Positions 352-20,477 of a stretch of DNA of 27,780 nt are shown here, piece by piece (positions within the stretch are counted from its first letter, which is position 1; every line of letters starts with the position of its first letter). The DNA comes from a virus: positions 1-27,780 of the IMG/VR virus record IMGVR_UViG_3300042898_002918; one strand, written 5' to 3'. The position numbers were made by a program, and so were the translations under genes. The notes below the pieces were generated by a model that was not told the DNA's origin, made no database searches, and saw only the letters and a program-made list of their open reading frames with translations.

Positions 352-2766
352 TTACTTTATTAAGGTAATTCTTCCGACTGGGCGAATACGCAAGAAATCA
401 TCCTTCTTGGTTGCTTTGTAGGAGAAAAATAATAGGGAACAATAGTCAAGCTTGTCTTTCAGTTCTTCGTATTGATCTGAGAACAGCGTGACTTCTGATA
501 TAGAAGATAAATCTTCGATTGTCAATGTTGCCATTAATTTTCCTTTTGATTTACCGCTTTTGATTTGCTGTTCTTTAATATGAGATACCGCGACGAGCAG
601 ATTGCCTTCGTTGCTATTTGTCTCATCAATATCTTCTATTTGATTAATTAAGATTCCGGGTGGAGTCTTAGTAATGTAAGACAGAGGATGGCGACTAATA
701 AAAAACTTACAGTATTCTGATTCCCACTTAACAATTTGTAGTGGGACTCTATAGTCAGATGCTTTCTTAATAGATTCTAAGTCAGGAAAAGTAGGCTGAT
801 CAGGAACTTTAAGAACCAATGGCTTCTTAGGTCTTAGTTCTGAATAGACTTTCTTGCTGTCTGAATCTAGATGGACTGTGATTACACCAGCTTTTAGTTT
901 GGTTGTCCAGTCATCGAGCAAAGCAGGATAAGCATCTACTTCCTTGTTACGCTCAAAGGCCTGAACTATTCTTGTTTGATAGTTCTCAACCTTTGTATAG
1001 TAATCAAAGATATCAGGAAGTTTATCTACAAGCTTGACTCTATCGTAGCCAAAGCTATCGAATGCACCAACCTTTGCAAGTATACTAACAACACCAGAGT
1101 TAATCTTTGTGCGATTGATTCTAGTGAAGAAGTCAGCCATGCTTGTAAATGACTTGCGACCGCGGGCCTTAAGTATAAGGTCGCTAGCTTTGTTACCAAT
1201 GCCATTGATCATGCCAAGGCCAAACAAGATAGTATTGTCATCCAGCTTAGTAAAACCAATATCACTATTGTTAATACTGGGTGGAAGAATATTGTAACCC
1301 ATCTGGCGATACTCGTTGATATATCTGACCAGCTTCTCAGGCTTACCACTTCTCACAGTCATTAGCGTAAGCATAAAGTCTGTAGGGTAGTAGGTCTTAA
1401 GATAAGCATTGAAGTAAGTAATGAATGCATATGCAAGAGCGTGACTCTTATTGAACCCATACTCAGCAAACGCTGCAATGATATTCCAAATACGAGTTGC
1501 TTCTCCCATGTCAATCTTATGAAGACGAGCACATCCCTCCACAAATAGTGTTCGGTATTCTGCCATCAACGTGGCATCTTTCTTACCCATTGCTTTTCTA
1601 ATCTTATCAGCCTCTTGGAGGGTTACTCCTGCGAGAATCTGACAAGCAGCCATGATCTGCTCCTGGTAGATAAGAACACCGCCAGTTTCAGCAAGTATAT
1701 CATCAAGTAATGGATGTAACTTATTCTGAGTTTGACGAGTCTTCTTGTAGTCAATGTAGTCTTGAAGGAGACCTGAGTCACGAGGACCAGGACGGTTAAG
1801 AGCTGAGAAGACTGCAAGATCTTGAACGCTTTGTGGCTTAAGATCAGCCACAAGCTTTAGAAGATAGGTCTCTTCCATCTGAAATAAGCCAGCTGTAAAT
1901 CCTTTATTGATTAACTCAAAGACAGCAGGATCATCAGTTGGAACTTCTTCCTCTAGCCATTTAAGAGACTTACCAATGCGCTTACAAGTAAGATCATTAA
2001 TTGTGAGACAGTCAATTCTAAGAATGTCGAACTTAATAAAGTTCATCTTCTCAAGAGTTGGGCCTTCCCACTGGGTAAGATTAAACCAGTCTGAACCTTC
2101 AGTCTTGCTCTTGCGTATTGGAATAATCTGATCTACTGGACTTGTGCCAATTAGAACTGCGCTAGCATGTACGCTAACTTCTTTTGCTTGGCCATCTACT
2201 GGCCCGCAAAGACTAAAGATATCTTGATTAGCTTCTACAATCTTCTTGATGTGTTCGCTGTTGTCCTCAATAAGTTCCTTATAAGTCACGTACTTACCAC
2301 GATGACTTTCAGGTAGGCTATCAGCTAGACGCTCTGCGTCAGCAATAGTTCTATATGAACCATCCGCATGTTTAAGTAACTTAGTAAAAGCTTTAACACT
2401 GGTCTTAAGAGACCAAGGCTTGTAAGTTGAGACACGAAGAACACGATCATGGCCATACTTGGTTTGTAATGCCTTGATTAGATCATCGGCGCGGACGTTA
2501 CAGAAGTCAGTATCAATGTCCGGACCTTCGCCATCAACATGATAAGTAACACGCTCATCTTGATTGTATACATCAGATAAACCAAGAGCATAAAGCAAAG
2601 CAGAATTACTTTTATTTGCAAGCTTAGCCTTAGATGCCGAGGCCTTATTAATAAAGCCAAGCGTATCGTCAGTAAGATAGCGAATCTCAAAATCTAAATA
2701 GTCTTTGTTTATTGCTGTGAGTCTATCCTGCAGATAGAATTCATTAAGGTTTTTCTTGTTGATCAT
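352..2766 (-). CDS. dnaE: DNA polymerase III alpha subunit, C-terminal part (catalytic palm, fingers, HhH, OB)
   Basis: This is the second polypeptide of a split replicative polymerase of the bacterial C family. Residues 1-80 match nothing I know. The catalytic strand follows (GPDIDTDF, Asp83 and Asp85). SVHASAVLI near 198-206 matches the conserved nucleotide-site segment, and FIKFDILR carries the third catalytic Asp, about 247. A fingers region, tandem helix-hairpin-helix (GLGMINGIGNKASDLI, about 500-530), the landmark FISRHPL and a C-terminal OB fold complete the order seen in DnaE. All three catalytic aspartates are here, while the PHP, thumb and GS-rich palm motif are in the 3051-4334 gene. 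ATG 2764-2766 overlaps the preceding small gene by 23 nt. No obvious beta-clamp-binding motif was seen. Family assignment is secure; function as one half of a two-chain enzyme is inferred. Confidence 0.93.
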   Translation of the reverse strand: MINKKNLNEFYLQDRLTAINKDYLDFEIRYLTDDTLGFINKASASKAKLANKSNSALLYALGLSDVYNQDERVTYHVDGEGPDIDTDFCNVRADDLIKALQTKYGHDRVLRVSTYKPWSLKTSVKAFTKLLKHADGSYRTIADAERLADSLPESHRGKYVTYKELIEDNSEHIKKIVEANQDIFSLCGPVDGQAKEVSVHASAVLIGTSPVDQIIPIRKSKTEGSDWFNLTQWEGPTLEKMNFIKFDILRIDCLTINDLTCKRIGKSLKWLEEEVPTDDPAVFELINKGFTAGLFQMEETYLLKLVADLKPQSVQDLAVFSALNRPGPRDSGLLQDYIDYKKTRQTQNKLHPLLDDILAETGGVLIYQEQIMAACQILAGVTLQEADKIRKAMGKKDATLMAEYRTLFVEGCARLHKIDMGEATRIWNIIAAFAEYGFNKSHALAYAFITYFNAYLKTYYPTDFMLTLMTVRSGKPEKLVRYINEYRQMGYNILPPSINNSDIGFTKLDDNTILFGLGMINGIGNKASDLILKARGRKSFTSMADFFTRINRTKINSGVVSILAKVGAFDSFGYDRVKLVDKLPDIFDYYTKVENYQTRIVQAFERNKEVDAYPALLDDWTTKLKAGVITVHLDSDSKKVYSELRPKKPLVLKVPDQPTFPDLESIKKASDYRVPLQIVKWESEYCKFFISRHPLSYITKTPPGILINQIEDIDETNSNEGNLLVAVSHIKEQQIKSGKSKGKLMATLTIEDLSSISEVTLFSDQYEELKDKLDYCSLLFFSYKATKKDDFLRIRPVGRITLIK

Positions 2767-3058
2767 AGTTATCCAATAAACAATGTTTAAGAAATACTTC
2801 CCTATAAAGATTTAAGATTTCTTTCTTCTTCTCAGGATCAGTAATATAAAAATGACGGAAAAGCAAGTACAAAAAAGTAAAGAATGGAATAGTATAAATC
2901 CAACCAAGCTTAGAATACCAAGTTCGACTATGGTCTAAGGCAAAACTTTTAACAGAAGAAAAAGTTTCAGTTGCTTTATTCCATGTATACTTTTCTTTAA
3001 AAACTTTTCTGTAAGATAACTTGTCTGGTGTATACACTATAGACTTTTCATCAGACAT
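2744..3058 (-). CDS. Small single-pass membrane protein between the two polymerase genes
   Basis: A 104-aa protein with no family I recognise. The N-terminal half is basic and aromatic, residues about 51-68 (LGWIYTIPFFTFLYLLFR) form one clear transmembrane helix, and the C-terminal tail is charged (DPEKKKEILNLYREVF). The start is ATG 3056-3058, which overlaps the TGA of the upstream polymerase part by 8 nt (ATGTCTGA). A TTG two codons earlier is possible but less likely. Its 3' end overlaps the start of the polymerase C-part by 23 nt, so all three genes are probably translationally coupled. It has no homing-endonuclease or intein motif. The position suggests a role with the polymerase, such as membrane tethering, but this is inference. 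Confidence 0.8.
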   Translation of the reverse strand: MSDEKSIVYTPDKLSYRKVFKEKYTWNKATETFSSVKSFALDHSRTWYSKLGWIYTIPFFTFLYLLFRHFYITDPEKKKEILNLYREVFLKHCLLDNYDQQEKP

Positions 3059-4334
3059 TTTCAAGTTCTTTCATGTCTTCTGAGTAGTCTAAAGTAATGC
3101 GAACTCGACCAGGATTAAGGAAGCGCTCAAAGAGTAAGCCATGCTTAACTGGGTCAAGATGCTTAGCTGTAATGCCCAATGACCATGAGATCAAAGAGCC
3201 GCCGCCTGAGCCACGAGCTGGACCTACAGGTATACCCATACCCTTAGCAAGGCTAACATAGTCTTGAACGACAAGGAAATAGGAGCTATAGCGTGCCTCG
3301 TCAATAACTTGGAACTCATATCTAATTCTATCCTTGTAAGCCTTAGGAACATCAGCCCAACTCTTTACGCCAAGTCGAGATATAAGTCCAGCCTTAGCTT
3401 TCTTAAGTAGCATTAGACTTGTCCCTTCTGGGGTCATGCCTTCAAGCTGAAGGTTTGGAGCTTTAGTCGCCCGCTCAAAATATGAACCATCAACAAGATC
3501 TGCTACGTGCTGAGTATTAGTAACTGCCTCATGAGGCAATTGCCAGTCATCACAGAGTCCTTTAGCAAACTCCTCATCATACATCCAAGCATTGTGATCT
3601 TGGATTTCATATGGCATTGTGTCAGGAGTCTTATGCATACTTACACACATAACATAGCTACGTAATTTATACTGATCTTGATTTTGATGATGAGCATCCG
3701 CAGTAAGAACAAGAGGAATATTCTTACGCTTACTTAGATCAATTAGATATTGATTGTAACCATATTGCTTTTCAACATTGTTATGCTGAAGCTCAAGAAA
3801 GAAGCTGTCGTCGCCAACCGCTTCTCTGATCTCATCACACCATCGATCTATCTTTGCATGTTCACCCCAGTGCCAATACTTAAAGCACTGACTACTGATA
3901 CAAGTACTAGTAGCAATCAAGCCTTTAGCATGTTGCTTGAAAGTATCTAGATCAATACGAGGATAGCGATAAAAGCCATCTTCATATGAATACTTTGTAA
4001 GCTTCATTAGGTTCTTATAGCCTTCTTCATTCTTAGCAAGTAATAAGAAGTGACCATTGTTAACAGCCTTCTCGGCCACTCCATTTTCTGGCATAAAGTC
4101 AGACTTGGTCTTGGCATCGCCAAAAGCAAGGTAAGTCTCATTGCCAATGATAGGCTTTACATTTGCTGCACGACAGCCTTTTACAAACTCTGGGATGCCA
4201 CCCATATATCCATGATCTGTCAACGCAACTGCATTCATTCCCCTAGACGCAACAGTCTTACCCATTTCGTCAGCTGGCTGTAAGCCATCAAGTAATGAGT
4301 AGTAACTATGCGCATGAAGATGTACCATTCCCAT
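3051..4334 (-). CDS. dnaE: DNA polymerase III alpha subunit, N-terminal part (PHP domain and start of palm)
   Basis: A 427-aa first half of the split C-family polymerase. It opens with the PHP signature (MVHLHAHSYYSLLDG: His5, His7). TDHG (40-41), GNETY (Glu66), His95, Cys145 (TSTCISS), ELQHN (Glu181) and TADAHH (213-215) follow, so the metal-binding set of an active PHP exonuclease appears complete. The GS-rich palm motif (PARGSGGGSLISWSLGIT, from about 372) and GLLFERFLNPGR then match the segment just before the catalytic aspartates. The chain instead ends in VRITLDYSEDMKELENV, a degenerate version of that strand. I chose ATG 4332-4334 because DnaE proteins begin this way, GAGAG lies just upstream, and the longer frame would start inside a terminator hairpin. 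The catalytic aspartates are in the 352-2766 gene. Confidence 0.93.
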   Translation of the reverse strand: MGMVHLHAHSYYSLLDGLQPADEMGKTVASRGMNAVALTDHGYMGGIPEFVKGCRAANVKPIIGNETYLAFGDAKTKSDFMPENGVAEKAVNNGHFLLLAKNEEGYKNLMKLTKYSYEDGFYRYPRIDLDTFKQHAKGLIATSTCISSQCFKYWHWGEHAKIDRWCDEIREAVGDDSFFLELQHNNVEKQYGYNQYLIDLSKRKNIPLVLTADAHHQNQDQYKLRSYVMCVSMHKTPDTMPYEIQDHNAWMYDEEFAKGLCDDWQLPHEAVTNTQHVADLVDGSYFERATKAPNLQLEGMTPEGTSLMLLKKAKAGLISRLGVKSWADVPKAYKDRIRYEFQVIDEARYSSYFLVVQDYVSLAKGMGIPVGPARGSGGGSLISWSLGITAKHLDPVKHGLLFERFLNPGRVRITLDYSEDMKELENV

Positions 4335-4363
4335 ATTATTCTCTCGTGTAAGTTTAAAAATCA

Positions 4364-4413
4364 ATAAAAACACCAATAGGCAACAAGGCTAATAATAGCC
4401 CGTTGCCCCTTGG
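4364..4413 (-). terminator. Intrinsic terminator after phoH
   Basis: On the minus strand a 41-nt imperfect hairpin (4373-4413) has paired blocks CCAA/TTGG, GGCAAC/GTTGCC and GGCTA/TAGCC around a TTAT loop, with small internal loops. It is followed by a U-rich run (TGTTTTTATT). It lies 20 nt after the phoH stop and ends only about 30 nt before the polymerase N-part start. It probably ends, fully or partly, the transcript carrying the reductase, RecA-like, MoxR, VWA and PhoH genes. Confidence 0.75.
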
Positions 4414-4432
4414 TTTGCAATAGCAAAAAGTA

Positions 4433-5335
4433 CTAGTCGACTAGTTTCTTGCAGATCTGTATTCCGAGCTCAGCTAGTGGGCTACGCTCAATCTCGATAA
4501 GCTCAATAAAGCTAGTAAGAGGACTTTGCTGATAGATGTCAAGTCCAATTGTCTGAAGCACCGGGCAAGGCTTACCCTTGCGATTTTCCTTTTCGTCAAT
4601 CTGATCTGTGTCAGCCATAAGTATTAACTTACTCTTCTCACCTAAACGAGTGATTAGAGTCTTAAACTGATGGATCTCAACGTTCTGTGCCTCATCACAA
4701 ATGACTAATGCATTTGTAAAGTCTTCGCCGCGCATATATTCCAAAGGAATGCACTCAATCTTTCCTTCCTCAAGCTTCTGCTCAAAGATCTTTAGGTAGG
4801 TCTTACCCCAGATCTTAGCAAGAGCACGCTCATAGGAGCTGAACACTGGTCTCATCTTGTCTATAATTGTACCTGGAACATCGCCAATTCTACCGCCACT
4901 GCTGGTGGTAGCCTGGGCTCTGCTCTTTGTCAAGATAATCTTATCGTATTTCTTTTCGTCAAGCATATTAATTGCAGCAACCATTGTTACATAGGTCTTG
5001 CCAGAGCCAGCTCCGCCAAAGACTGTAAGCATTGGAATGCTTTGATCATACAATGATGAGAGTAAATATTTTTGCTCTAGATTCTTAGGAGCAAACTTCT
5101 TGACTGTAGGTAAATTAATGTTGACTAATGCTTCGCCGTTCCATCTCTTAAGAGCGCTATAGCTACCATGTCTAAAGCACCAATAGCTATTAACTGGTGG
5201 TGCTGACATCTCGAACCAAGGATCAAAATCAAGGTCATCAATAGTAACAGGGTCATCCGTAAACAGTGGACCTAAGTCTGCAGAATATTCTACATCAATT
5301 ATGGTCGGATGAAATACTTCCTTTGGTTCTTGCAT
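4433..5335 (-). CDS. phoH: PhoH-like P-loop ATPase
   Basis: A 300-aa PhoH-family nucleotide-binding protein. The N-terminal about 80 residues are acidic and variable. The family core follows: FAPKNLEQKYLLSSL (81-95), Walker A GGAGSGKT (107-114), ILTKSRAQ, VPGTIIDKMRPVF (153-165), Walker B ALVICDEAQN (209-218) and the sensor-like LILMADTDQID. Length fits phage PhoH proteins with an N-terminal extension. The ATG follows AAGGA at 5 nt, which lies within the end of the upstream VWA gene, so translation is coupled. PhoH is widespread in phages and its task is unsettled (RNA metabolism or phosphate response have been proposed). It is the last gene before a terminator. Confidence 0.92.
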   Translation of the reverse strand: MQEPKEVFHPTIIDVEYSADLGPLFTDDPVTIDDLDFDPWFEMSAPPVNSYWCFRHGSYSALKRWNGEALVNINLPTVKKFAPKNLEQKYLLSSLYDQSIPMLTVFGGAGSGKTYVTMVAAINMLDEKKYDKIILTKSRAQATTSSGGRIGDVPGTIIDKMRPVFSSYERALAKIWGKTYLKIFEQKLEEGKIECIPLEYMRGEDFTNALVICDEAQNVEIHQFKTLITRLGEKSKLILMADTDQIDEKENRKGKPCPVLQTIGLDIYQQSPLTSFIELIEIERSPLAELGIQICKKLVD

Positions 5336-5343
5336 TGGCTTCC

Positions 5344-6780
5344 TTACAAAAGTAGTTTGTTGTACCTCTCAAGAAACTCAGATTTAGCAAATTTTTTGTA
5401 GTCGCTAGGCAGTATTAGATAGAAGTTTTCAGGAATAAGTTCTTTTTGTATTTCAGGAATTATGCCGTCCGTAAAGCAAAGCACTGCATCATATTTATAT
5501 CTTCCGTTGTATTGGCCAATTATTTTTAACGCCGGATTCAAATCTGTGCAGCCACCGCCTTTCCATTCAATCGTCTCTGCAAAGTTCTTATTTCTTGCCT
5601 TCTCTATGTCCCCTCTCACCTCACTGTCATTCATTACATAATGAACACTAGCAGAAGTTGCTAGCTTCCTTAAATAAGATACAAACTTTTCAGCAAGTTG
5701 AGTATCGATACTTCCAGAAGTGTCGAAAATACAAGCAATTAAAGGCTTATCTGATTTCTTAGGGCCAGGTAAGATTCCTGGTAAAACTACGTTATAACTT
5801 GCCCATGACACTCCAGTCCTGTGTCTCTTGCCTGGTCTGATTAGACTCTTTAAGAATAGGACAGCGTCTCCTTCGTAAGGTTTTACGTGGATATCTATGC
5901 TATCAAATTTATCTAATTTATCAAACGAAAGAAATGGTGTTTCATTTATTTCAACAATTTTTGCAATTTGTTTCTCTATTGAACTAATTCTTTCATTTTG
6001 TTCTTCTTCGGAGATATCACTATCGTCGAGGACCATGTCCATACTTAATTGATTTATTTGATTTTGTTTTTGTTTGTCTATAAAGTCTTGATAATCGGGA
6101 CTATTCTTTAGCCAATTGAAGATTTCATTGGCGGTAACTTTATAAATTCCTTTTCTATTTCCATACTCATCCCTTAGCAGTTTGCTACTAGGGTGTAAGT
6201 AGTAAGCAGATAAGTCTGGGTGTTCAAAGGCAGCTTGTTCGTCAGTGCGAAAAGCATTAAAGAAAAACTTACCTTGGGCCTTGTGTAAAGGATAGTTTAC
6301 AAAATCACTTGGATCATCTAGCTGAGTAAAAGATTCTACATATTCATAAAGTAACTCAGTATTAATTTTCATATCCTGAGCTACATTCATAAGATAGCGA
6401 TCTTCAGCTGGTACTTTAAACATAGATACAGGATGAGCATAGACGAAATGCTTAAGCTCATGCAGTAGGATAAAGTAAAAAGTTTTATCACTTAATCTGC
6501 TAATGTTATCTATATTAAAATATAGCCCATACTGTTTAGTACTTGGAGTCCAGGCGATACAAGCTATGAACTCAGGATTAAAACCTTCACCTATAGCTTC
6601 TTCTTTGGATAAGAAGTATCTGTCTAGACAAATTAAGTACTCAGTTAGATCAAGGAAAGTATAAGCAATTGCATATGAAATGTAATCTGCAACAGGACTG
6701 TCTTTGCCTTCCTTGATAGCAATCAAAGAGCGACAAAGATCAGTAATTTTATTAGCATAAACTTTCTTTAAAGCATTCAT
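5344..6780 (-). CDS. VWA-domain protein with metallopeptidase-like N-terminal domain (MoxR partner)
   Basis: A 478-aa protein of the VWA-like/DUF2201 type. The N-terminal domain carries HELKHFVYAH (107-116), an HExxH-like zinc motif, followed by NVAQDMKIN, typical of the putative metallopeptidase domain of this family. The middle is charged and Gln-rich. The C-terminal von Willebrand A domain has a full metal-ion-dependent adhesion site: DTSGS (353-357), the Thr of GGGCTD (about 412) and FTDG (about 438). Its start overlaps the MoxR stop by one base (TAATG), so the two are made together. In known pairs a MoxR-type AAA+ ring remodels client proteins or inserts cofactors, with the VWA protein bridging to the substrate. 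The client is unknown, and whether the HExxH site is catalytic cannot be told. Confidence 0.85.
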   Translation of the reverse strand: MNALKKVYANKITDLCRSLIAIKEGKDSPVADYISYAIAYTFLDLTEYLICLDRYFLSKEEAIGEGFNPEFIACIAWTPSTKQYGLYFNIDNISRLSDKTFYFILLHELKHFVYAHPVSMFKVPAEDRYLMNVAQDMKINTELLYEYVESFTQLDDPSDFVNYPLHKAQGKFFFNAFRTDEQAAFEHPDLSAYYLHPSSKLLRDEYGNRKGIYKVTANEIFNWLKNSPDYQDFIDKQKQNQINQLSMDMVLDDSDISEEEQNERISSIEKQIAKIVEINETPFLSFDKLDKFDSIDIHVKPYEGDAVLFLKSLIRPGKRHRTGVSWASYNVVLPGILPGPKKSDKPLIACIFDTSGSIDTQLAEKFVSYLRKLATSASVHYVMNDSEVRGDIEKARNKNFAETIEWKGGGCTDLNPALKIIGQYNGRYKYDAVLCFTDGIIPEIQKELIPENFYLILPSDYKKFAKSEFLERYNKLLL

Positions 6781-9239: not shown

Positions 9240-11171
9240 TTACTTAACAGGACAGAAGCCACCTTCGCAATCGCTAGCATCTACACTCGCATCGAATGAA
9301 ATACCATTGATTAACTTAGTTGTTCTAACCAGTTCATTATAGACATCTTCTGTGATTTCTTCAAGAGGAGCTTGCTTGAAACCATGTTCAGAATGTAATA
9401 AGAATGAAAGACTCTTGTGGTTTAAGGTATAGTTCTCACGAAGATATTCCTTAACCTGATCGAGCTCCTCTTTCTTGTAATAAATAGTGCAAGATACACT
9501 ATTGTCTGACCAGTCTTGCTGAAGTCTCTTGACAACCGCAAGCTGATCAAGGGCTGTCATATCCCTAGCTAGAAGTGTTCCTTCAGGATAGGCAAACGGG
9601 AATTCAGCGACCATAGTCGAATAGTCAAGACTACCATCAAAGTTTTCCTGATACTCAATCTTATAGTTGTGTGAACGTACCACTTCAATCAATGGATGAT
9701 TAGCAGCAATACGAATACGACGAATAAGATGTCTAGCATATGCAGGATGAGCACCAGGTGTAACACCAGGAAGTAAGCTAAGTGTACCGCTAGGCTTTAC
9801 TGTTGTAAGCTTAACGCTAACAGGGAATCCCTTTGCTGCACTATACTCAACATCGTAAGCACGAAGGTCGCTATAGACTTCCTTAAGCCAAGACTTATGT
9901 TCTTCAGTAGCTTGAAGATAGCCAGTAATACCAATACCCATACGCATATGCTTATTGACAATCTCTTCTGTTTCCGAGTGGTGACAATGCAAAGCCAAGC
10001 TATGCTTGTTAATACGGTAAAGTAGTTTACATACATCAGCCAATTCAGCAGGACTTGTTATATTGGGAAGGAATACTTCAGCCAAGCAACAAGTCTCAAA
10101 ATTAGCAAGGCTCTGCTCTGCACAAGGGTTGTAACCCATGACAGCAGGATCAGGATACTCTGTTTCACCAAGTCGACCCATAGCGCGTGAAAGCTTAAGG
10201 TTAATTAAACCATAAGGCTCTCCCTTACCTTCGTAACCATCCCAGAACATGTCTGGAAGGTCATTGATGTCATCACAAGCTACGCTGTTATTGGACATTG
10301 CACGCCAGCTTGGGATAGTACCCAAGTCCCAACGCTTAGCAAGTAAGAACTCAATATCGTCACAGTCGCCAATGGCAATCTGTGCGCTACGTCGAACGTT
10401 ACCAGCTACTACAATGCTACCTATAATATTCATGATGTCTAGACAATCAACGCTACGTAATTGCTTACCAGCACGCTTCTCAAGGACCTTACCAATATTA
10501 GCTATACCTTCACATAGAATCTCAGGACCACTAGCTACGCCACCAAAGCCTTTGATTGGCGCGCCTTTGCCACGGATTAACTGAGTGCTAAATGTAAATG
10601 TATTCTTCTTGTCTGCAAGGAATGCAGCCTTAAGAGTCTTAGCCAATAGTGCAACCCAACCTTCTCTTGTATCGGACACAATAAAGTCAGAGTCACCGTG
10701 GTCTCTGCGGGTTGGACTCTTAAAGTTCTTACGAACCTTAGGAAGCTTGTTAATATGCTCACGCTGAATGTTATAGCCAACGCCACAACCAAGCATAAGC
10801 ATATCCATTGTCCAAGTAAATGGACGAACGGGATTATCAACAACAGTAAAAGCACAGTTCTGAAGACTTGGAAGACCTAAGTCCTTAACAGTCCTAGTGC
10901 CTAGCTGCCACAGAAAGCGGCCAGCAACGGTACCCTTAAGCTCAAGCATATACTGCCTAAGTCGGGCACGCTCATCAGGCGTAAAGCCTACCTTAAGCTG
11001 CTTATCACTGGCATTAAGGACACGTTCTACAGTGTCAGTCCATTCCTCGGTCGGACCATTAAGATCAGACTCACTAAGTCGTCTTGCATAGGTTCTCTTA
11101 TAGGTAAGATAGCCTACAGTACTCCAGGGCGTTGCTACATCTTGTAGCGAAAAATCATTAACGTTTGTCAT
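9240..11171 (-). CDS. nrdJ: Class II (adenosylcobalamin-dependent) ribonucleotide reductase
   Basis: A 643-aa reductase of the monomeric RTPR type, making deoxyribonucleotides with a B12-derived radical. The N-terminus has WSTVGYLTYKRTYARRL, as in RTPR. QNCAF (Cys106) and ETCC (Cys361/362) supply the substrate-site cysteine pair. NPCAE (350-352) carries the thiyl-radical Cys and catalytic Glu. APIKGFGGVASGPE, NVRRSAQIAIG and VKPSGTLSLLPGVTPG are further family landmarks. The C-terminal CEGGFC (635-640) is the swinging-arm thiol pair that regenerates the active site. It is about 100 residues shorter than the Lactobacillus enzyme, as is common in phages. There is no intein. AAGAGAG precedes the ATG. 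It should feed dNTPs to the polymerase together with ThyX and the deaminase. Confidence 0.94.
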   Translation of the reverse strand: MTNVNDFSLQDVATPWSTVGYLTYKRTYARRLSESDLNGPTEEWTDTVERVLNASDKQLKVGFTPDERARLRQYMLELKGTVAGRFLWQLGTRTVKDLGLPSLQNCAFTVVDNPVRPFTWTMDMLMLGCGVGYNIQREHINKLPKVRKNFKSPTRRDHGDSDFIVSDTREGWVALLAKTLKAAFLADKKNTFTFSTQLIRGKGAPIKGFGGVASGPEILCEGIANIGKVLEKRAGKQLRSVDCLDIMNIIGSIVVAGNVRRSAQIAIGDCDDIEFLLAKRWDLGTIPSWRAMSNNSVACDDINDLPDMFWDGYEGKGEPYGLINLKLSRAMGRLGETEYPDPAVMGYNPCAEQSLANFETCCLAEVFLPNITSPAELADVCKLLYRINKHSLALHCHHSETEEIVNKHMRMGIGITGYLQATEEHKSWLKEVYSDLRAYDVEYSAAKGFPVSVKLTTVKPSGTLSLLPGVTPGAHPAYARHLIRRIRIAANHPLIEVVRSHNYKIEYQENFDGSLDYSTMVAEFPFAYPEGTLLARDMTALDQLAVVKRLQQDWSDNSVSCTIYYKKEELDQVKEYLRENYTLNHKSLSFLLHSEHGFKQAPLEEITEDVYNELVRTTKLINGISFDASVDASDCEGGFCPVK

Positions 11172-11222
11172 TTTAAACTCTCTTAAAATAATGAGAAATA
11201 GAAAGGGGTAAGGAATATCTTA

Positions 11223-11735
11223 TCACTGGGTCTCGAAACCCTCAGACCCTTTTCCAAATGCTTTTAACTCGCTATTAACTGAGTAAGCAACACTTTCTAG
11301 AACTCGTCTCATACCTATGAGTTGACCCTGAATTCTTTCAAAAAAATCTACTAGGAATGTATGAAGTACTTCCTTAGTATTATCATCATCAAACTCTACA
11401 TCAAGACTCGCCTGTAGTTGATCTACAGTAAACTTAGGATTGTCTTTCTTAAGTTCTAAAAGCTTTGCAGCTTTACGAGACTTGATGGCGGAGTGATGAA
11501 GATCTCTGGCCAGAACGGCTTGACTATGCTTGTGATTTACATCACTAAGTAAATCTGCAATTCGTCTAAATTGCTTATAGACGTCCTTAACAGTCATATC
11601 ATCGGGTAAAGTTATCCGATAATACTCAGCCCATTCTGTCAGAGTCTTCTTATTGAAAGAAATAGTATTGACTAGGTTGATATCAGTTACGCAGCTTTTC
11701 TTTGCAGACTCAACTTTATCTTTATCTATTTCCAT
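11223..11735 (-). CDS. Helical hypothetical protein
   Basis: A 170-aa protein with no family I recognise. There are tandem ATGs; the second (11733-11735) lies 6 nt after AAGGAG, so I prefer it over the first, which would leave only 3 nt. The sequence is mostly helical and charged (VYKQFRRIADLLSDVNHKHSQAVLARDLHHSAIKSR is one long helix by composition), followed by an acidic patch (DVEFDDDNTKEV) and another amphipathic helix. There are no membrane segments. It starts just after the SpoVG-like gene, whose stop overlaps its ribosome-binding site, and it precedes the ribonucleotide reductase. A nucleic-acid-binding or structural role is possible but not shown. Confidence 0.75.
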   Translation of the reverse strand: MEIDKDKVESAKKSCVTDINLVNTISFNKKTLTEWAEYYRITLPDDMTVKDVYKQFRRIADLLSDVNHKHSQAVLARDLHHSAIKSRKAAKLLELKKDNPKFTVDQLQASLDVEFDDDNTKEVLHTFLVDFFERIQGQLIGMRRVLESVAYSVNSELKAFGKGSEGFETQ

Positions 11736-11745
11736 CATTTACTCC

Positions 11746-12165
11746 TTAGTCGGTTTCCCACTCATCTGAGGTGCTAGCCTTAGGTGCAGCCTTAGCAGGA
11801 GCGGGCTTCTTCGCAAGATATGAGTCAGGAACACTGCTCTTCGTAGCTGGCTTACCTGCAGCAGGCTTAGCAGCTGATGATGACGAACGCGTCGAGCCAC
11901 CCGTCTGGCTCTCATACTCAGCAACAAGTGCCTCCTTAATATCAAGAAGGAACTGGCCGCTCTCTTTAGGAGCAATAATCGTATCCTCATATGCTTCTCC
12001 ACGCTTCGCACTAGGAGCACCAGCGAATAGACCGTTCTTGCCGTTAACTACTTTCCATCCCTTAAGGATTAGATCGCCATCGTCAGTGACAAGGGTTACA
12101 TCGCCCATGGCGACAACGGGACCAGTGGGGTTGCTAAGGGGATTCACACGAACTCTAATTTCCAT
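11746..12165 (-). CDS. spoVG: SpoVG-domain protein with disordered linker and acidic C-terminus (candidate single-strand-binding protein)
   Basis: A 139-aa protein. Residues 1-85 resemble SpoVG: MEIRVRVNP, VVAMGDVTLV, LILKGWKVVNGKNGLFAGAP and then a helix LLDIKEALVAEYE, the strand order and VxNGxNGLFxxxP signature of that family. SpoVG proteins bind nucleic acid. Residues 87-131 form a Ser/Ala/Pro/Lys linker, and the last residues (SDEWETD) are an acidic tip with an aromatic. That layout, compact binding domain plus flexible linker plus acidic tip, is that of bacterial and T7 single-strand-binding proteins. No OB-fold SSB was found elsewhere in the window. The SSB role is inference; the SpoVG relationship is fairly clear. 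The ribosome-binding site lies inside the preceding 49-aa frame. Confidence 0.72.
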   Translation of the reverse strand: MEIRVRVNPLSNPTGPVVAMGDVTLVTDDGDLILKGWKVVNGKNGLFAGAPSAKRGEAYEDTIIAPKESGQFLLDIKEALVAEYESQTGGSTRSSSSAAKPAAGKPATKSSVPDSYLAKKPAPAKAAPKASTSDEWETD

Positions 12166-12304
12166 AATTTACCTCTTTGGTTTTGCCAAGCTTTCGTTCT
12201 TTGTGCTTGGCTAGCAAGTTAAGACCAATCTCGAAAATGATTGGTGCTGCAATTACAATAGCCTGTTTAATGGCATATTTGTTTTTAAATAAATAATAAT
12301 ACAT
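12155..12304 (-). CDS. Putative 49-aa membrane mini-protein
   Basis: A short frame in the gap between the 12331 gene and the SpoVG-like gene. ATG 12302-12304 is preceded by AGGAGAG with a short spacer, a strong ribosome-binding site, and its TAG overlaps the SpoVG start by 11 nt. It encodes MYYYLFKNKYAIK, then a hydrophobic helix (AIVIAAPIIFEIGLNLLA, about 14-31), then a basic tail (KHKERKLGKTKEV). This is a typical single-pass phage mini-protein pattern. Without a homologue it stays tentative, but the otherwise unexplained 165-nt gap, the ribosome-binding site and the coupled overlap all favour a real gene. Confidence 0.55.
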   Translation of the reverse strand: MYYYLFKNKYAIKQAIVIAAPIIFEIGLNLLAKHKERKLGKTKEVNYGN

Positions 12305-12311
12305 ACTCTCC

Positions 12312-12329
12312 TAATATTGAATAATATTA
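12312..12329. repeat. Perfect 7-bp inverted repeat before the 49-aa gene
   Basis: TAATATT and AATATTA flank a 4-nt spacer between the stop of the 12331 gene and the ribosome-binding site of the mini-protein gene. On the minus-strand RNA this forms a small all-AU hairpin directly upstream of AGGAGAG. There is no following U-run, so it is not a terminator. It could be an operator dyad, an RNA-processing site or chance in AT-rich DNA. Confidence 0.4.
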
Positions 12330-12330
12330 A

Positions 12331-12687
12331 TTACGATTCAGGAGTTGACTGTTCCTCGGGGCTGGAACCACCATTAGTATCTGATGATTCTTTTATCTCT
12401 AAAGTATACTTCTCAGATCCAAAAGTATAACCAAGCTGGAAAGCAACAAAAAGTAAAACGCCTAAAGCATTAATTGTTTGGTCGCTTCCAAGAGTTCCAA
12501 GTGCGCGAACAAATGGATCATTCTGCTCCATAAGCTCTTCTAGAAACTCGCCAACAACAGCCTTGCCTTTCGACTTCTCAACAACATCTTTATCTTTAAG
12601 ATGTCGAATGATACCTGACAAGATAGATGTAAGGGGAATTTCTTTTTCGCCATCAGTAATTAAAAGTGAACTTTCTCTTTTTTCCAT
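12331..12687 (-). CDS. Small protein with one hydrophobic segment, unknown
   Basis: A 118-aa protein starting at ATG 12685-12687 with GAGG about 6 nt upstream. The first 60 residues are charged and helical (IIRHLKDKDVVEKSKGK, GEFLEELMEQNDPFV). Residues about 71-89 (TINALGVLLFVAFQLGYTF) are hydrophobic enough for one membrane helix. The tail is acidic and Ser/Pro-rich (SSDTNGGSSPEEQSTPES), probably disordered. No family recognised. One base separates it from the 12689 gene upstream. A membrane-attached accessory protein is possible, but the hydrophobic stretch could also be a buried core helix. Confidence 0.7.
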   Translation of the reverse strand: MEKRESSLLITDGEKEIPLTSILSGIIRHLKDKDVVEKSKGKAVVGEFLEELMEQNDPFVRALGTLGSDQTINALGVLLFVAFQLGYTFGSEKYTLEIKESSDTNGGSSPEEQSTPES

Positions 12688-12688
12688 A

Positions 12689-13237
12689 TTAACCCTCGCG
12701 TGAATAAGTTATGAATAAATTTCCATTTTGATGTTTGAAATTATAAGGAATACCATGATGGTCCATGGGCTTCATACCCATTGCTTGAAAGAAGTATGGA
12801 TTATATCCATAAGGATCTTTGAACCTACTTAAATGGTTACGAAGTTCTCCGGCCACAAAAGGACTATTGGTATAGATCCTAAGCTTCGCTCCTGTCATCA
12901 AACTATTAAATCCTAAGCCACTAGTATACTGCTTTACAGCAAGACTTGCAAGCAAAAAAGTAACTTTAGTGTAGATGTCATAGCCTTCAGGCAATAGGTC
13001 TTTGTATTTATATACAAGAAAATCTGTGCTGTCCATGTCTATATCTGGGCCATCAGTAGACCCATATCGATAGACGACCATCTGCTCTACATCATCAAAG
13101 AATATGCCAATATGAGTCCAGGGACCAGACCTATATGGATATCCAAGTATAGGATTGAAACCATAGCCGAATGAAAAGGCCATGGTCCACATGTAAGTTC
13201 GAATTTTATCTAATACTTTATAATAAAAATTCTTCAT
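12689..13237 (-). CDS. Hypothetical protein, aromatic-rich
   Basis: A 182-aa protein, ATG 13235-13237, with only a weak upstream AAGAA. It is rich in Tyr, Phe, Gly and Pro (FSFGYGFNPILGYPYRSGPW, DPYGYNPYFFQAMG) and has alternating strands such as HIGIFFDD and MVVYRYG, suggesting a compact mixed alpha/beta fold. I see no nucleotide, metal or membrane motif and do not recognise the family. It lies in a run of unknown genes between the SpoVG-like gene and ThyX, so a replication-associated accessory role is a guess only. Confidence 0.72.
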   Translation of the reverse strand: MKNFYYKVLDKIRTYMWTMAFSFGYGFNPILGYPYRSGPWTHIGIFFDDVEQMVVYRYGSTDGPDIDMDSTDFLVYKYKDLLPEGYDIYTKVTFLLASLAVKQYTSGLGFNSLMTGAKLRIYTNSPFVAGELRNHLSRFKDPYGYNPYFFQAMGMKPMDHHGIPYNFKHQNGNLFITYSREG

Positions 13238-13245
13238 AGTTATTC

Positions 13246-13773
13246 TTACTTCTTAGGGTCTCGCTCACGCTGTAGATCAAGATGCAGGCCAGTCATATAG
13301 ATGCTAGCTGTGCGGCAAAGATTGATAAAGATATCCATCTCACCTGAAGTCATTGAGGTAGAGATACTATCACCAGCCTCATTGCGCATCGTAAGCATAT
13401 AAGTACCAAGATACTTATCTACGCCACTCTGGAATGTAAGTTTCTTAACGTTATCCTCGCTTGCACCAGGCGGAACGTGAATAAGGTTTAAGGTTTGACG
13501 CTGTGACGTATCAACCCAACCATTCATTACACCATTATAGAAGCTAAGGATCTGGTAGATATCGTTAATACCTACGGCAAAAACAATCTTATTACCCCAG
13601 TCGAAAGTGTTATGGCCACCTTCGTTCTTGCCACCAGTTGCACGAGCAAACTGGAGATATACTGCGCCTTCCTTCTCTACTTGCTTACCATAATCACTAT
13701 CCTTAGTGGTTACTGGAATGTAAGAGATCTGTAGTGCGCTGCTCTTCTTGACAATCTGAAACTGCTTTGACAT
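13246..13773 (-). CDS. Candidate Whirly/PUR-like single-strand nucleic-acid-binding protein
   Basis: A 175-aa protein with ATG 13771-13773 and AGAGGA just upstream. The pattern is beta-rich then helical: SALQISYIPV, VYLQFARATG, FDWGNKIVFAVGINDIYQIL (the most characteristic stretch), LNLIHVPPG, YLGTYMLTMRNEAGDSISTSMTSGEM and a final helix IFINLCRTASIY. A four-strand sheet, a helix, then repeated strands and a helix, with the FDWxNKI...L motif, recalls PUR-alpha/Whirly-type proteins that bind single-stranded DNA or RNA, some of which occur in phages. This is from memory of fold patterns, not a search, so it could be wrong. Its place near SpoVG-like, RecA-like and polymerase genes is consistent. 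Confidence 0.6.
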   Translation of the reverse strand: MSKQFQIVKKSSALQISYIPVTTKDSDYGKQVEKEGAVYLQFARATGGKNEGGHNTFDWGNKIVFAVGINDIYQILSFYNGVMNGWVDTSQRQTLNLIHVPPGASEDNVKKLTFQSGVDKYLGTYMLTMRNEAGDSISTSMTSGEMDIFINLCRTASIYMTGLHLDLQRERDPKK

Positions 13774-13807
13774 TTTTCCTCTTTTTTTCTAATTATTTCC
13801 CATAATA

Positions 13808-14275
13808 TTAAATAATAAAATTCTCCCAAGACTCATGTCCTGGCTTTTGAATTTGTAATTTCCAATTTAATTTTTCGACTAAATGATTAACATAAAAACA
13901 CATAACATCTTCGTCTTCAAAAAGTTCAAGGAACTTAAATTGAACTTCGCTAGTATACATTTGCTGAGTCTTTTTGGCAAGAGGATCAACTTTGTATTCA
14001 GCTGTAAATAGCTCTTTATACATAATAGTGTTTATTATGCTTAAAGGCTGAGTCTCAATTAATTCTTTGAATTCTTCAGTCATTACATTAAAAATGCCTT
14101 TATGATAACAGCAAAGTTTAAAAGTTTCATTGTCTAACCTTTCCCAGATTAGATTGAAGCTTACACCTTTAAAGTCATCTTCTTTTTTTACTGTAAGTCC
14201 CTTCGGATTGTCAAGTATTGTGTTTATACTTGTTAATTCAAAAGCGTCTTTTGTAGCGGCAAATCTGTAAGGCAT
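13808..14275 (-). CDS. Hypothetical protein
   Basis: A 155-aa protein with ATG 14273-14275 and AGAGGA 4 nt upstream, a strong ribosome-binding site. Its first 43 nt overlap the end of the preceding gene in another frame. The sequence has strands such as VSFNLIWERL and FKLCCYHKGIF, followed by helices (EEFKELIETQPLSIINTIMYKELF) and an acidic patch (LELFEDEDVMCFYVNHLVEKL). No recognisable domain, membrane segment or catalytic motif. It is AT-rich compared with the RNR and RecA-like genes, as are several unknown neighbours. Confidence 0.7.
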   Translation of the reverse strand: MPYRFAATKDAFELTSINTILDNPKGLTVKKEDDFKGVSFNLIWERLDNETFKLCCYHKGIFNVMTEEFKELIETQPLSIINTIMYKELFTAEYKVDPLAKKTQQMYTSEVQFKFLELFEDEDVMCFYVNHLVEKLNWKLQIQKPGHESWENFII

Positions 14276-14652
14276 TTGATCCTCTTGGATTTAAGGGTTT
14301 TTTGTCCAGTAAGTAGACTATTGAAGTCTGAGATCTTTGTCTTGTAAGCAATATGAGCTAACCATACTTTCATAAGAAAAGGTTCTGTGACAATAGCGTC
14401 TTGCATGTCTTCATCTGGATGTATATCTTGAATCATTGTAATAAGTAAATTCAATTTATTATCAAGTTTACTAATAATGAACTTATCTTCTTCTATGAGT
14501 TCTTCTTTGGAAAGCTTTACCCCATGAGGCATTACATATTCTTTTTCTTTGATAGGAATAGTGACTGATGGTATTGCAGCCGGCTTATCCTTAGCTAAGA
14601 TATCCTCAGCTCTCTCCCATATTGAAAACAAATATTTACGCAACTTACCCAT
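14233..14652 (-). CDS. Hypothetical helical protein coupled to thyX
   Basis: A 139-aa protein. I place the start at ATG 14650-14652, which overlaps the thyX stop by 8 nt (ATGGGTAA), rather than at an upstream TTG with no ribosome-binding site. It begins MGKLRKYLFSIWERAEDIL, a basic amphipathic helix, then a Pro/Ile segment (PAAIPSVTIPIKEKEYVMP) and further helices (LNLLITMIQDIHPDEDMQ). It ends with a basic segment. No family recognised. Its last 43 nt overlap the 13808 gene. Translation probably depends on ribosomes finishing thyX. Confidence 0.65.
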   Translation of the reverse strand: MGKLRKYLFSIWERAEDILAKDKPAAIPSVTIPIKEKEYVMPHGVKLSKEELIEEDKFIISKLDNKLNLLITMIQDIHPDEDMQDAIVTEPFLMKVWLAHIAYKTKISDFNSLLTGQKTLKSKRIKCLTDLPLQKTLLN

Positions 14653-15526
14653 TGGCAATCTTATTAAATTTTTCTTCAAACTCTAGCAACTCGCCTTTGC
14701 TTAAGTTTGTTCCCTCAATGGCTGCATTGAAAGCTTCTTTACCAGTGAAGGGGATAAGATAACGTAAAGCGTCTAACTCTACCTTACTAAAAGACACTCC
14801 ACCTTGCCAGTAGTCTTCGAATGCTTCCCAGGTCCAAGGACAGTGTAGCTTTACAAACTCTGCAATTGCTTCTGCAAATACCCGAATCTCATACTGAGCA
14901 TGGGAGTCTAGACGAAGTCTAAGCATCTTAAGAAGATTGAGTAAGTCACACTTCCAGACAACGCGAGTATAGAGATTGACAGGAAGTACCATGCGAGCTT
15001 GTTCGCGGCTAACACCAGCCTCAATTAACTGCTGATAAAGCTTGTAAGCTTCATCAGTTTGATGATTCATAACTGCTGTTGCTGTTTCTTTGGGACCAAT
15101 AAAGGGATTAAAGTCACCTTCAGCGCTTCCTTGCTTATTGGTAGTGCTTTGAGCTCTAAGAGTATCAGGTTCATAGAATACATCTTCCATGACACTGTAA
15201 CGTGCGCTTTCCTCGTTAAGACTAGCAGTTCTATGACGAACTAGCTGGCGCATAACAAAGATAGGCAAACGCATCTCGAACTTAAACTCTACCATCTCGA
15301 ATGGACTAGTATGCCAGTGCCGCATAAGATAACGCAGCAATTGCTTATCTGACTGCTTGCGTGTTGTACCTGACTGGTAACTAACTCTAGCAGCATCAAT
15401 AATTGCATAGTCAGCAATGTTAGTATTAAATGAAAGATCTTCTGCATCAGCATGAGGCATAACATCAATCAGCTTAACATAACCATGATCAAGACATGGA
15501 ATTAAATCATTAGTTCTTTCTAGCAT
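14645..15526 (-). CDS. thyX: FAD-dependent thymidylate synthase ThyX
   Basis: A 293-aa flavin-dependent thymidylate synthase, converting dUMP to dTMP with methylene-tetrahydrofolate and NAD(P)H. The ThyX signature RHRTASLNEESARYS (97-111) is intact, including the Ser and Arg residues that bind dUMP and FAD. LMRHWHTSPFEMVEFKFEMRLPIFVMRQ precedes it as in the family (here in parts, residues 67-94), and LPVNLYTRVVWKCDLLNLL with RLDSHAQYEIR completes the fold. Length is at the long end for ThyX. The ATG follows GAGGA at 5 nt. It belongs with the ribonucleotide reductase and deaminase in dTTP supply. Confidence 0.96.
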   Translation of the reverse strand: MLERTNDLIPCLDHGYVKLIDVMPHADAEDLSFNTNIADYAIIDAARVSYQSGTTRKQSDKQLLRYLMRHWHTSPFEMVEFKFEMRLPIFVMRQLVRHRTASLNEESARYSVMEDVFYEPDTLRAQSTTNKQGSAEGDFNPFIGPKETATAVMNHQTDEAYKLYQQLIEAGVSREQARMVLPVNLYTRVVWKCDLLNLLKMLRLRLDSHAQYEIRVFAEAIAEFVKLHCPWTWEAFEDYWQGGVSFSKVELDALRYLIPFTGKEAFNAAIEGTNLSKGELLEFEEKFNKIANG

Positions 15527-15527
15527 T

Positions 15528-16238
15528 CTAATCCTCAGGGAGCAGTTGAATATGTATATATTCAGAGTCTGTTACATCTTGATAGTTTTGACCAATATTA
15601 AAAGTAGTAATTAGCTCATTAATTAATTGACCATCTTCTTTGTTGCCAATCTTTTTATAGACCATGTAATGGGTTTTATATGAAAGATTAGATTTATTCT
15701 CAATAACTTTCTTAACAAAGACTGAATAATCAGCAGCAGAATTAATTAATATTTCTTTGCTGTTATCAATGTCATATAAAGTATACTTTGTGTACATGTT
15801 ATAGACATCATTGTCTTTGATTACACTAGGGAAATCAAATTTACTATGCTTCTTAAATAGCTGAAGTTCTTCGGGCTCTTCTTGATATTCTTCTTCGGCA
15901 TTTTGCAGAGCGCCGATTACGTTTCTGTAACCTAGAAAGATGTCTACAATTCTTGTAAGCATACTTTTATAAGGAATATAAACAGTTTCGTTATCTGTAA
16001 TCATTAGTTCTAACTTTTCATATATCTCATCAGTAAAAATATCTTTAGTCAGACTATTACTTGTCAATGCTTCATTAGGAAATTGAATATGAATTTTTTT
16101 AGAATTGACATAATCAATAAATGTAACCTGGCGTTGCCAATAGTAAATTGTTTTGATAACTCTATTAAGACTAAGTAATAGGGAAACAGAAAGTCCACAT
16201 ATCCCGATTGCAATGATAGAAAATATCAAAGAGGTCAT
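15528..16238 (-). CDS. N-terminally anchored membrane protein, unknown
   Basis: A 236-aa protein whose N-terminus is a membrane helix (LIFSIIAIGICGLSVSLLLS, about 4-23) followed by basic residues, giving a likely cytoplasmic C-terminal domain or an uncleaved anchor. The rest is AT-rich in codons and polar, with an acidic stretch (NAEEEYQEEPEELQ, about 114-127) and strands such as THYMVYKKIG and EYIHIQLLPED. No domain recognised. Its start overlaps the upstream zinc-finger gene by 1 nt (TAATG) and it ends in TAG one base before thyX, so it is part of the same operon. Confidence 0.75.
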   Translation of the reverse strand: MTSLIFSIIAIGICGLSVSLLLSLNRVIKTIYYWQRQVTFIDYVNSKKIHIQFPNEALTSNSLTKDIFTDEIYEKLELMITDNETVYIPYKSMLTRIVDIFLGYRNVIGALQNAEEEYQEEPEELQLFKKHSKFDFPSVIKDNDVYNMYTKYTLYDIDNSKEILINSAADYSVFVKKVIENKSNLSYKTHYMVYKKIGNKEDGQLINELITTFNIGQNYQDVTDSEYIHIQLLPED

Positions 16239-16774
16239 TACTTTTTCACGTGCTCAAAGTATCCAGACCCGTTGCAAATATAGCAAACAGTTGGAACCTC
16301 AGGTGGGGCATTAGGATCAATGCCATCACCGTAACATGCGTGGCAGATATTGTTATACTTACGATAAAGGAAAGCACACTCAGCAGCAGCTGGCGTCTTC
16401 TTTACTGTGTTATAGACAAACTGCCAAAGTTGAAGACCCCATTCCCATGACATATATGCATGATCAGACTCTTCTCTGGTCTCATATGTTCCCTTCTCAA
16501 AGACTTTGCTAGAGAATGGAATTACTGCGACGACAATCCGGTCAGGATCATTAGGGTTAGCTAATGACATGCGCATTGTAAAGTCAGGAAAAGAAAGGAG
16601 TCTATCTTCTTCCCATTCTGCGACAACAGGCATTGATACCAGGTGTGGCTCTTCAGGAGTAAGAATAGTTTCATTCTTATAGTGCCAGTGTCCAGTCTCT
16701 GTTTCTACAAACACACACTTTGGATCTAGCTTTAGTTCAAAATTCTCAAATAGCTCTTCTAACGTATACTTCAT
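16238..16774 (-). CDS. Protein with C-terminal DnaJ-type zinc finger
   Basis: A 178-aa protein. The C-terminal third carries two CxxCxGxG half-sites, CHACYGDG (Cys144, Cys147) and CYICNGSG (Cys164, Cys167), which would bind one zinc as in the cysteine-rich region of DnaJ and related phage proteins. Residues 1-130 form an unrecognised domain with strands (IVVAVIPFSSKVF) and a Trp-rich part (SWEWGLQLWQFVY). There is no J-domain HPD motif, so it is not a DnaJ. It is the first gene after a strong terminator, and a perfect inverted repeat abuts its start codon. No clear Shine-Dalgarno precedes the ATG. Function unknown; a nucleic-acid or protein adaptor is plausible. Confidence 0.82.
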   Translation of the reverse strand: MKYTLEELFENFELKLDPKCVFVETETGHWHYKNETILTPEEPHLVSMPVVAEWEEDRLLSFPDFTMRMSLANPNDPDRIVVAVIPFSSKVFEKGTYETREESDHAYMSWEWGLQLWQFVYNTVKKTPAAAECAFLYRKYNNICHACYGDGIDPNAPPEVPTVCYICNGSGYFEHVKK

Positions 16775-16791
16775 ATAACACCAATGTTATA
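16774..16791 (-). promoter_or_regulatory. Inverted repeat at the start codon of the zinc-finger gene
   Basis: TATAACA and TGTTATA, a perfect 7-bp inverted repeat with a 4-nt spacer, lies between the terminator U-run and the start codon; its last base is the A of the ATG. In RNA it would fold a hairpin that could hide the initiation region, and in DNA it is a possible operator dyad. No usual Shine-Dalgarno is present here, which makes a regulatory role more likely, but the sequence alone does not prove it. Confidence 0.5.
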
Positions 16792-16794
16792 AGT

Positions 16795-16827
16795 AAAAAA
16801 AATATACCCCCTGTTACGGGGATATAT
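16795..16827 (-). terminator. Strong intrinsic terminator
   Basis: On the minus strand ATATATCCCC and GGGGGTATAT form a 10-bp stem with one G-U pair and a 6-nt loop, followed directly by seven U residues. It lies 9 nt after the stop of the 16836 gene, as expected for the end of the long right-hand operon. The next gene starts only about 20 nt further on. Confidence 0.88.
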
Positions 16828-16835
16828 GGAATATA

Positions 16836-17807: not shown

Positions 17808-17831
17808 GTCTTCTGTGAGCAGCTTGATGTG

Positions 17832-18809: not shown

Positions 18810-18821
18810 ATATTCCTCCAG

Positions 18822-18834
18822 TATTCTCAGAATA
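18822..18834. repeat. Short perfect dyad upstream of the 17832 gene
   Basis: TATTCT and AGAATA are arranged around a single central base, between the stop of the uracil-DNA glycosylase gene and the GGAGGA of the next gene. A one-base centre disfavours an RNA hairpin and would suit a protein-binding dyad in DNA, but 6-bp arms can occur by chance in AT-rich DNA. Confidence 0.25.
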
Positions 18835-18836
18835 TT

Positions 18837-20017: not shown

Positions 20018-20475
20018 TATAGAACTCGATTAATTAGAGCTGAGTAGACTTTCCTACCATTAGGTGAGTCTGACTTTTTAAGTGAGTCGAACTGTACAAT
20101 ATCTACTTGGTCATATGACCAGTCAGAAAGATCTACAATCTCCAAGTAAAGATTTACTTCATCGCAGTGTTTCTTATCGTCAGCAGTATAGTAATCAAAC
20201 CAGCTACCAATATAAGATAAGGTTGTTTGCTCGGGATTACTGCTAGGATAAATGGCAATTGCAGAGTCTTTCTTGATTCGATCTCCAGGAAGATGAACTG
20301 CAGCTACAAGATTTAGAACTGACCTATGCAACTCTTCATGTTGATATTTACCAAGGTCCTCTTCGTCCTCGTCACTCTCAACCTTTAACTCATCAGGGAT
20401 GAATACGGTAAGAGTTTCGAGATCTTCATCTGCATGTCCATCGATAAAAGCATTAATATCAAAATCTTCTTCCAT
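20017..20475 (-). CDS. Acidic hypothetical protein
   Basis: A 152-aa strongly acidic protein, with ATG 20473-20475 preceded by GAGA at a usual distance. The first third is very acidic (DGHADEDLETLTVFIPDEL, ESDEDEEDLGKY) and is followed by a compact alpha/beta region (SVLNLVAAVHLPGDRI, AIAIYPSSNPEQTTLSYIGSW, VDIVQFDSL). It has no Cys or metal motif. It follows the GuaC-like gene by 2 nt. The acidity could point to DNA mimicry or simple solubility, but nothing in the sequence decides this. Confidence 0.72.
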   Translation of the reverse strand: MEEDFDINAFIDGHADEDLETLTVFIPDELKVESDEDEEDLGKYQHEELHRSVLNLVAAVHLPGDRIKKDSAIAIYPSSNPEQTTLSYIGSWFDYYTADDKKHCDEVNLYLEIVDLSDWSYDQVDIVQFDSLKKSDSPNGRKVYSALINRVL

Positions 20476-20477
20476 GT

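Follow-up and report, generated by a model that had tools for sequence, protein, structure and literature searches.

In cyanobacteria, the split DnaE is encoded by two genes bearing the DnaE-c split intein, and fractured genes that combine split inteins with Vsr-like endonucleases were reportedly described by Dassa et al. in 2009. Here, another arrangement is described in the window, that is, the whole 27,780-base IMG/VR virus contig IMGVR_UViG_3300042898_002918: a C-family DNA polymerase (DnaE) cut within its catalytic palm into an N-chain (P0001) and a C-chain (P0002), with a small open reading frame (ORF), P0003, between them. The window resembles the cyanobacterial case in having two genes and differs from it in that the cyanobacterial split is intein-mediated and lies at another site, while no intein is found here. 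The split-intein fractured genes, represented in our survey by the type I loci L018/L020, L153 and L165, share the DnaE insertion site of the window and are laid out as N half, endonuclease and C half, with intein halves (PF01079 Hint) that the window lacks; its chains would not splice.

A further comparison is with the genes-in-pieces of T4-like phages. The nrdA gene of phage Aeh1, split by a homing endonuclease, is fully functional, and in Aeromonas phage 25 the split gp43A and gp43B co-purify and show polymerase activity, while the mode of assembly of split chains has been called an open matter (PMC2988022). As in these systems (nrdA/mobE and gp43A/gp43B), an essential replication enzyme of the window lies in two coding regions, broken with respect to unsplit homologues; the T4-like cases, however, concern other enzymes and a polymerase of family B, and in them an endonuclease gene sits within or close to the break and the reassembled polypeptides are active, whereas the window has no endonuclease. 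Among T4-like genes-in-pieces, no active-site segment is known to us that was duplicated and then decayed reciprocally. Phage DnaE in two genes is also found in the actinophages Gilda (Microbacterium), Weiss13 (Mycobacterium) and Wollypog (Arthrobacter), the last with an HNH gene between the two; their N-genes encode 308-345 amino acids, which places the cut close to the PHP/polymerase boundary and, unlike that of the window, not through the active site. Corynephage P1201, whose second gene encodes 476 amino acids, a length that fits PHROG 21652, was rejected as a cultured parallel, its cut falling after the palm. No report of the present arrangement was found in a literature search of partial coverage, and databases may already contain two-gene forms, judging from PHROGs 7513, 13169 and 12219, which begin or end at this site.

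The phage of the window probably encodes its C-family replicase as a two-chain enzyme. Summed over both chains, the PHP, palm, fingers and HhH domains of such a polymerase are all present (Pfam matches above cut-offs, and Foldseek), as are the GS (glycine-serine) motif and the three catalytic aspartates, all conserved. The palm is not continuous: PF07733, which has 260 positions, is matched at positions 4-100 by the N-chain and 100-259 by the C-chain, and therefore this Pfam palm domain is cut at about position 100. An earlier interpretation of the contig, here called the sequence-only reading, had placed the PHP domain and the GS motif in the N-chain and all catalytic aspartates in the C-chain, with a third gene between them, and Pfam and the alignments bear this out; the N-chain stops 17 residues past FERFLNPGR, and D83 and D85 (in PDIDTDF) and D247 are invariant in a 56-row alignment. 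The search of related phages which it had proposed recovers the identical split and gene order in six other independently assembled contigs of 25-176 kb, with halves 92-98% identical, and the same architecture in eight contigs beyond the window clade.

The recurrence in six independently assembled contigs, together with purifying selection, rules out the sequencing frameshift against which the same reading had argued. The ratio of non-synonymous to synonymous substitution rates (dN/dS) is 0.016-0.033 in the bodies of both chains, that is, strong purifying selection, and 0.07-0.2 in the head, as the initial 80 residues of the C-chain are called here. Four relatives of 146-176 kb each carry one single DnaE, which is split, and neither PolA nor PolB was detected in these four; given this and the purifying selection, the phage apparently relies on the split DnaE as its replicase, and both halves seem to matter. 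A single metagenomic contig of 27.8 kb could by itself be suspected of being an assembly or sequencing artefact, or of holding a decaying pseudogene, but six further contigs arranged alike, the strength of selection and the status of the split DnaE as the only polymerase found in the relatives already contradict this, and leave it with next to no probability. Few enzymes are as hard to break as replicative polymerases; in this case, what seems to be a phage's sole replicase has its nucleotide-binding motif on one side of the cut and its catalytic aspartates on the other.

Such cuts recur in several phage lineages. Among 256 viral and phage DnaE loci surveyed, some contigs being counted twice, 224 carry both palm halves in one ORF and 30 are broken, the break falling between FLNP and DID in all of the latter but L187, which has a probable intron. 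The name type II is given to broken DnaE genes with no intein and with a C-chain head of about 75-85 amino acids; besides the window clade, they comprise L117, L123, L154, L162, L173, L257, L258 and L259, the last three picked up by a degenerate DNA pattern. The GS motif and F[EA]RFLN are in the N-chain, and DxD in the C-chain, of each of the 11 tabulated N/C pairs, the third catalytic aspartate being located in 10 of them. The split that the sequence-only reading had noticed is real, although not a one-off, being instead a recurrent and apparently mobile arrangement at an insertion hotspot. At the sensitivity of tblastn, no cultured phage with a type II head was found; the head pattern was not found in bacterial genomes, and a search with the L162 head gave only normal palms among the matches listed. 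In L257 (reverse strand, 2393-6235), the N- and C-chains share one frame, with TAA, 34 codons and TAG between them, and readthrough would produce a fused chain of about 1,280 residues.

The head of the C-chain, taken at first for some 80 unique residues, is instead homologous, via other phages, to the first palm half. In hhalign profile comparisons, type II heads score 40.0 against the palm N-half (100 column shuffles reached 16.1 at most) and all heads pooled score 43.2 (shuffle maximum 16.6), the comparisons of head and palm N-half profiles overall giving 36-43 against shuffled maxima of 16-20. The window-clade heads score 46.9 against the other type II heads (shuffle maximum 20.8), and 52.5 against 21.5 with more members; as they match other heads but not the palm directly, the link of the window head to the palm is transitive. 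Independently, the PF07733 match of type II C-chains starts at position 68/69 in five contigs and at position 3 in L257, in spite of 1-104 being covered by the N-chains, whose matches run up to positions 102-113; this overlap is due to duplication. The heads retain the helices and have lost the strand, the GS loop and FERFLN, whereas the N-tails across the family read R-x-x-x-P-x-[IL]-x-[FY] where the palm has R-V-S-M-P-D-I-D-I-D, their aspartates gone. Because heads lack GS and FERFLN, N-tails lack the aspartates, and the motifs are complementary in the 11 pairs, the sequences show a reciprocal, complementary decay that followed duplication of the palm N-half plus the catalytic strand. A duplication at the split had been suspected from the tail of the N-chain, and it is present but had been understated, since it is reciprocal and larger, with about 80 palm residues in the C-head in addition to the strand in the N-tail; the decayed strand itself is weak in the window taken alone and clear over the family. 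As a probable case of endonuclease-associated gene fission, the window stands out by the cut of a replicase between two active-site motifs and by the reciprocal decayed duplication.

The explanation that we favour, and hold to be probable, is an endonuclease-associated, non-splicing gene fission with duplication, giving a two-chain replicase whose endonuclease has since been lost in the window clade. It would have started with an insertion of the homing-endonuclease type at the catalytic motif, presumably driven by the endonuclease, with a tandem duplication of the palm N-half and catalytic strand. One copy of each would then have been lost to decay, namely, in the N-chain, the terminal strand and, in the C-chain, the GS-bearing half at its start, and the remnants would be kept under selection, probably because they aid folding, docking or assembly. 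In the window clade, the endonuclease would be gone and the gap occupied by a small unrelated ORF. The N-chain would supply the PHP nuclease domain, the thumb and the half of the palm that binds deoxynucleoside triphosphates (GS motif, FERFLNP), and the C-chain the catalytic half with its three aspartates, the fingers, the HhH and an OB-like region, both chains most likely being made from one operon and assembling without covalent joining. Several points weigh against this explanation. Only P0003 and no endonuclease is seen by Pfam in the gap of the window, hhalign finds no significant similarity to the palm for the window head by itself (17.9 against a shuffle maximum of 24.4), and if each chain folded on its own pseudo-copy, GS and the aspartates need not meet. 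Horizontal movement, moreover, relies on trees of deep divergence, and the rejection of a clade of L123 with L154 reaches only p 0.026 in the approximately unbiased (AU) test.

The motif between FLNP and DID is an insertion hotspot for introns, inteins and homing endonucleases. The type I loci have split inteins at the same site (PF01079 Hint, 8.1e-9 in L020) with an endonuclease-like ORF between the halves; in L020 (5323-11386), L153 and L165, this ORF amid the DnaE halves is of 357-364 amino acids and DUF7487/REase_MTES_1575-like. In the type III loci (L049, L078, L102 and L105), the halves resemble decayed split inteins (26.9 against 15.4 when shuffled), and it is possible that these are intermediates between an intein and a non-covalent split; their halves abut or nearly so, and no splicing residues remain. 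The phage locus L187 has a probable group I intron (E 5e-8, under the Rfam gathering score). Of 70 bacterial dnaE loci compared, seven are broken at this motif, all of them clostridial (L311, L326, L338, L339, L340, L344 and L345), with the break point of these chromosomal genes at FERFLNPER-PD|IDSDF. Rfam group I introns are found in L311, L344 and L345 and group II introns in L326, L344 and L345, while no intron reaches the Rfam threshold in the gaps of L338, L339 and L340; some clostridial dnaE genes hold several introns. In type II, the gap contents vary between LAGLIDADG ORFs (L117, L123 and L154, homologous to one another), an HNH ORF (L259), other genes, a small ORF and nothing, so that an endonuclease in the break, as in genes-in-pieces, is seen in these four loci and not in the window. 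The forms found at this one site, namely introns, inteins both split and decayed, and splits that are associated with an endonuclease and have a duplicated palm, make up a series in which the passage from selfish insertion to permanent multi-subunit enzyme can be tested directly.

The split inteins and introns that interrupt other DnaE genes at the same point also raise the question of whether a trans-splicing intein or a bipartite intron might cryptically restore a single chain in the window. As the sequence-only reading had noted, no intein is seen: the C-head matches C-inteins with an hhalign probability of 0.04%, which rejects a split or decayed intein, and Pfam gives no Hint match in P0001 or P0002. 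An intron is likewise rejected, with no Rfam match at E<=1 in 2300-3500. Each chain has its own start and stop in overlapping ORFs, and a ligated product would keep the redundant duplicated segment, all of which makes cryptic splicing very improbable. An intein match in a Prevotella Lak phage was set aside, as it sits in a helicase-like gene and not in DnaE.

As to the origin of the type II loci, the tree of DnaE bodies requires at least six changes for type II, counting strongly supported branches only, and in the AU test (18 rows) type II as one clade is rejected (p 1e-4), as are the three endonuclease-bearing type II loci as one clade (p 1.3e-4). Yet a head is more similar to other heads (z 4-35) than to the palm of its own DnaE (z -0.6 to 6), and the heads share the derived features Nxx(N/S)S...G(I/L)(T/S)(D/N)E.P. 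Movement of a unit of tail, endonuclease and head between the DnaE genes of different phages is for these reasons the simplest reading; from the sequences, it is supported but not proven. Convergent local duplications are possible, each type II lineage having been split on its own by a tandem palm duplication followed by a stop or insertion, and the heads having converged by losing the same motifs. The rejected single clade, the differing gap contents and the case of L257, with N and C in one frame and 36 codons apart (two stops) like a fresh tandem duplication, would fit this, but not the nearness of the heads to each other, their common derived features, or the homology of the L117 and L154 LAGLIDADG genes (1e-29) despite DnaE bodies in different clades, and we consider separate splits rather unlikely. 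Under the favoured fission by an endonuclease, a bolder and still tentative proposal, which we rate as somewhat doubtful, is that the unit forms a class of mobile gene-splitting element of its own, which would home into the catalytic codons of a replicase, would not splice out and would carry a degenerate copy of the active-site fold that it invades, by means of which the broken halves could fold and come together as a heterodimer; the window would then be a domesticated, endonuclease-free end state.

The predicted structures, which are AlphaFold2 models of single chains only, bear on how the two chains might work together. The N-chain is modelled with a predicted local distance difference test (pLDDT) of 87.9 and matches Pol III alpha in Foldseek (7pu7/2hpi/2hnh), and the C-chain, with a pLDDT of 82.6, also matches Pol III alpha. 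Residues 1-70 of the C-head form a small helical unit (pLDDT ~81-90), which a flexible linker at residues 72-80 (pLDDT <50) tethers to the catalytic strand, and the N-tail is of low confidence or disordered. The models fit a head that leaves the GS slot unoccupied, although superposition of the C-chain in Foldseek (root-mean-square deviation 13-18 A) shows it too flexible to place the head. We infer that GS from the N-chain and the aspartate triad from the C-chain would meet in one composite active site. The confident folding of the head and the disorder of the N-tail when alone could also suggest that no site is shared, the C-chain being a self-sufficient polymerase with a GS-less pseudo-palm half and the N-chain a PHP nuclease or accessory subunit. 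This is improbable in view of the conservation of GS and FERFLNPGR in the N-chain, equal to that of the aspartates in the C-chain, and of what the head has lost, namely the very elements, strand and GS loop, with which it would compete for the site. With a composite site, the two chains would be a natural conditional polymerase of practical interest.

Table 1. Features of the split dnaE locus in the window
Feature	Position	Strand	Remarks
DnaE N-chain (P0001), 427 aa	3051..4334	minus	PHP domain, thumb, first palm half, short tail
PHP domain	3783..4322	minus	PF02811, 1.6e-41 (Pfam)
GS motif R374-G375-S376 (GPARGS)	3207..3215	minus	invariant in N-chain alignment
FERFLNPGR, residues 402-410	3105..3131	minus	closes conserved N-half of palm
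N-tail, VRITLDYSEDMKELENV	3054..3104	minus	apparent decayed counterpart of catalytic strand
Middle ORF (P0003), 104 aa	2744..3058	minus	one long hydrophobic stretch
DnaE C-chain (P0002), 804 aa	352..2766	minus	head, second palm half, fingers, HhH, OB-like region
C-head, residues 1-81	2524..2766	minus	diverged copy of palm N-half (hhalign, via other phages)
Catalytic motif DIDTD (D83, D85; E. coli D401, D403)	2506..2520	minus	
Third catalytic Asp D247 (KFD)	2026..2028	minus	invariant in alignment
Fingers domain PF17657, 3.1e-44	1528..1962	minus	Pfam
HhH_6 domain PF14579	1033..1299	minus	Pfam

The genes follow each other in the order N-chain, middle ORF and C-chain, the middle ORF sharing 8 bp with the N-chain gene and 23 bp with that of the C-chain. 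It has no family match in Pfam and evolves rapidly, and its place between the polymerase halves is kept: each of the six relatives whose sequence spans the gap has a counterpart at the same place, which in three of them has diverged so far as to be barely recognisable. The candidate metal ligands of the PHP domain (H7, H9, D16, H41, E66, H95, C145, D213 and H215) are nearly invariant among relatives, D213 and H215 lying just beyond the edge of the Pfam match.

Elsewhere in the window, the minus strand of 9243-22069 carries nucleotide and polyamine genes, namely B12-type ribonucleotide reductase, ThyX, IMP dehydrogenase and S-adenosylmethionine (AdoMet) decarboxylase, with RecA and PhoH close by. 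In other contigs, the two polymerase halves of L173 (7296-11661) are set apart by a 4.4 kb insert, whose ORFs resemble radical-SAM proteins by eye (CxxxCxxC motifs), and L108 and L109, on the 171-kb contig IMGVR_UViG_3300035034_002798, are the same DnaE match found twice in opposite orientations, perhaps because the contig holds a long inverted repeat or was folded back on itself in assembly. Lastly, an unrelated protein of 182 amino acids at 12692-13237 of the window contains DGPDIDMD, which is like the DGEGPDIDTD of the polymerase, probably by chance.

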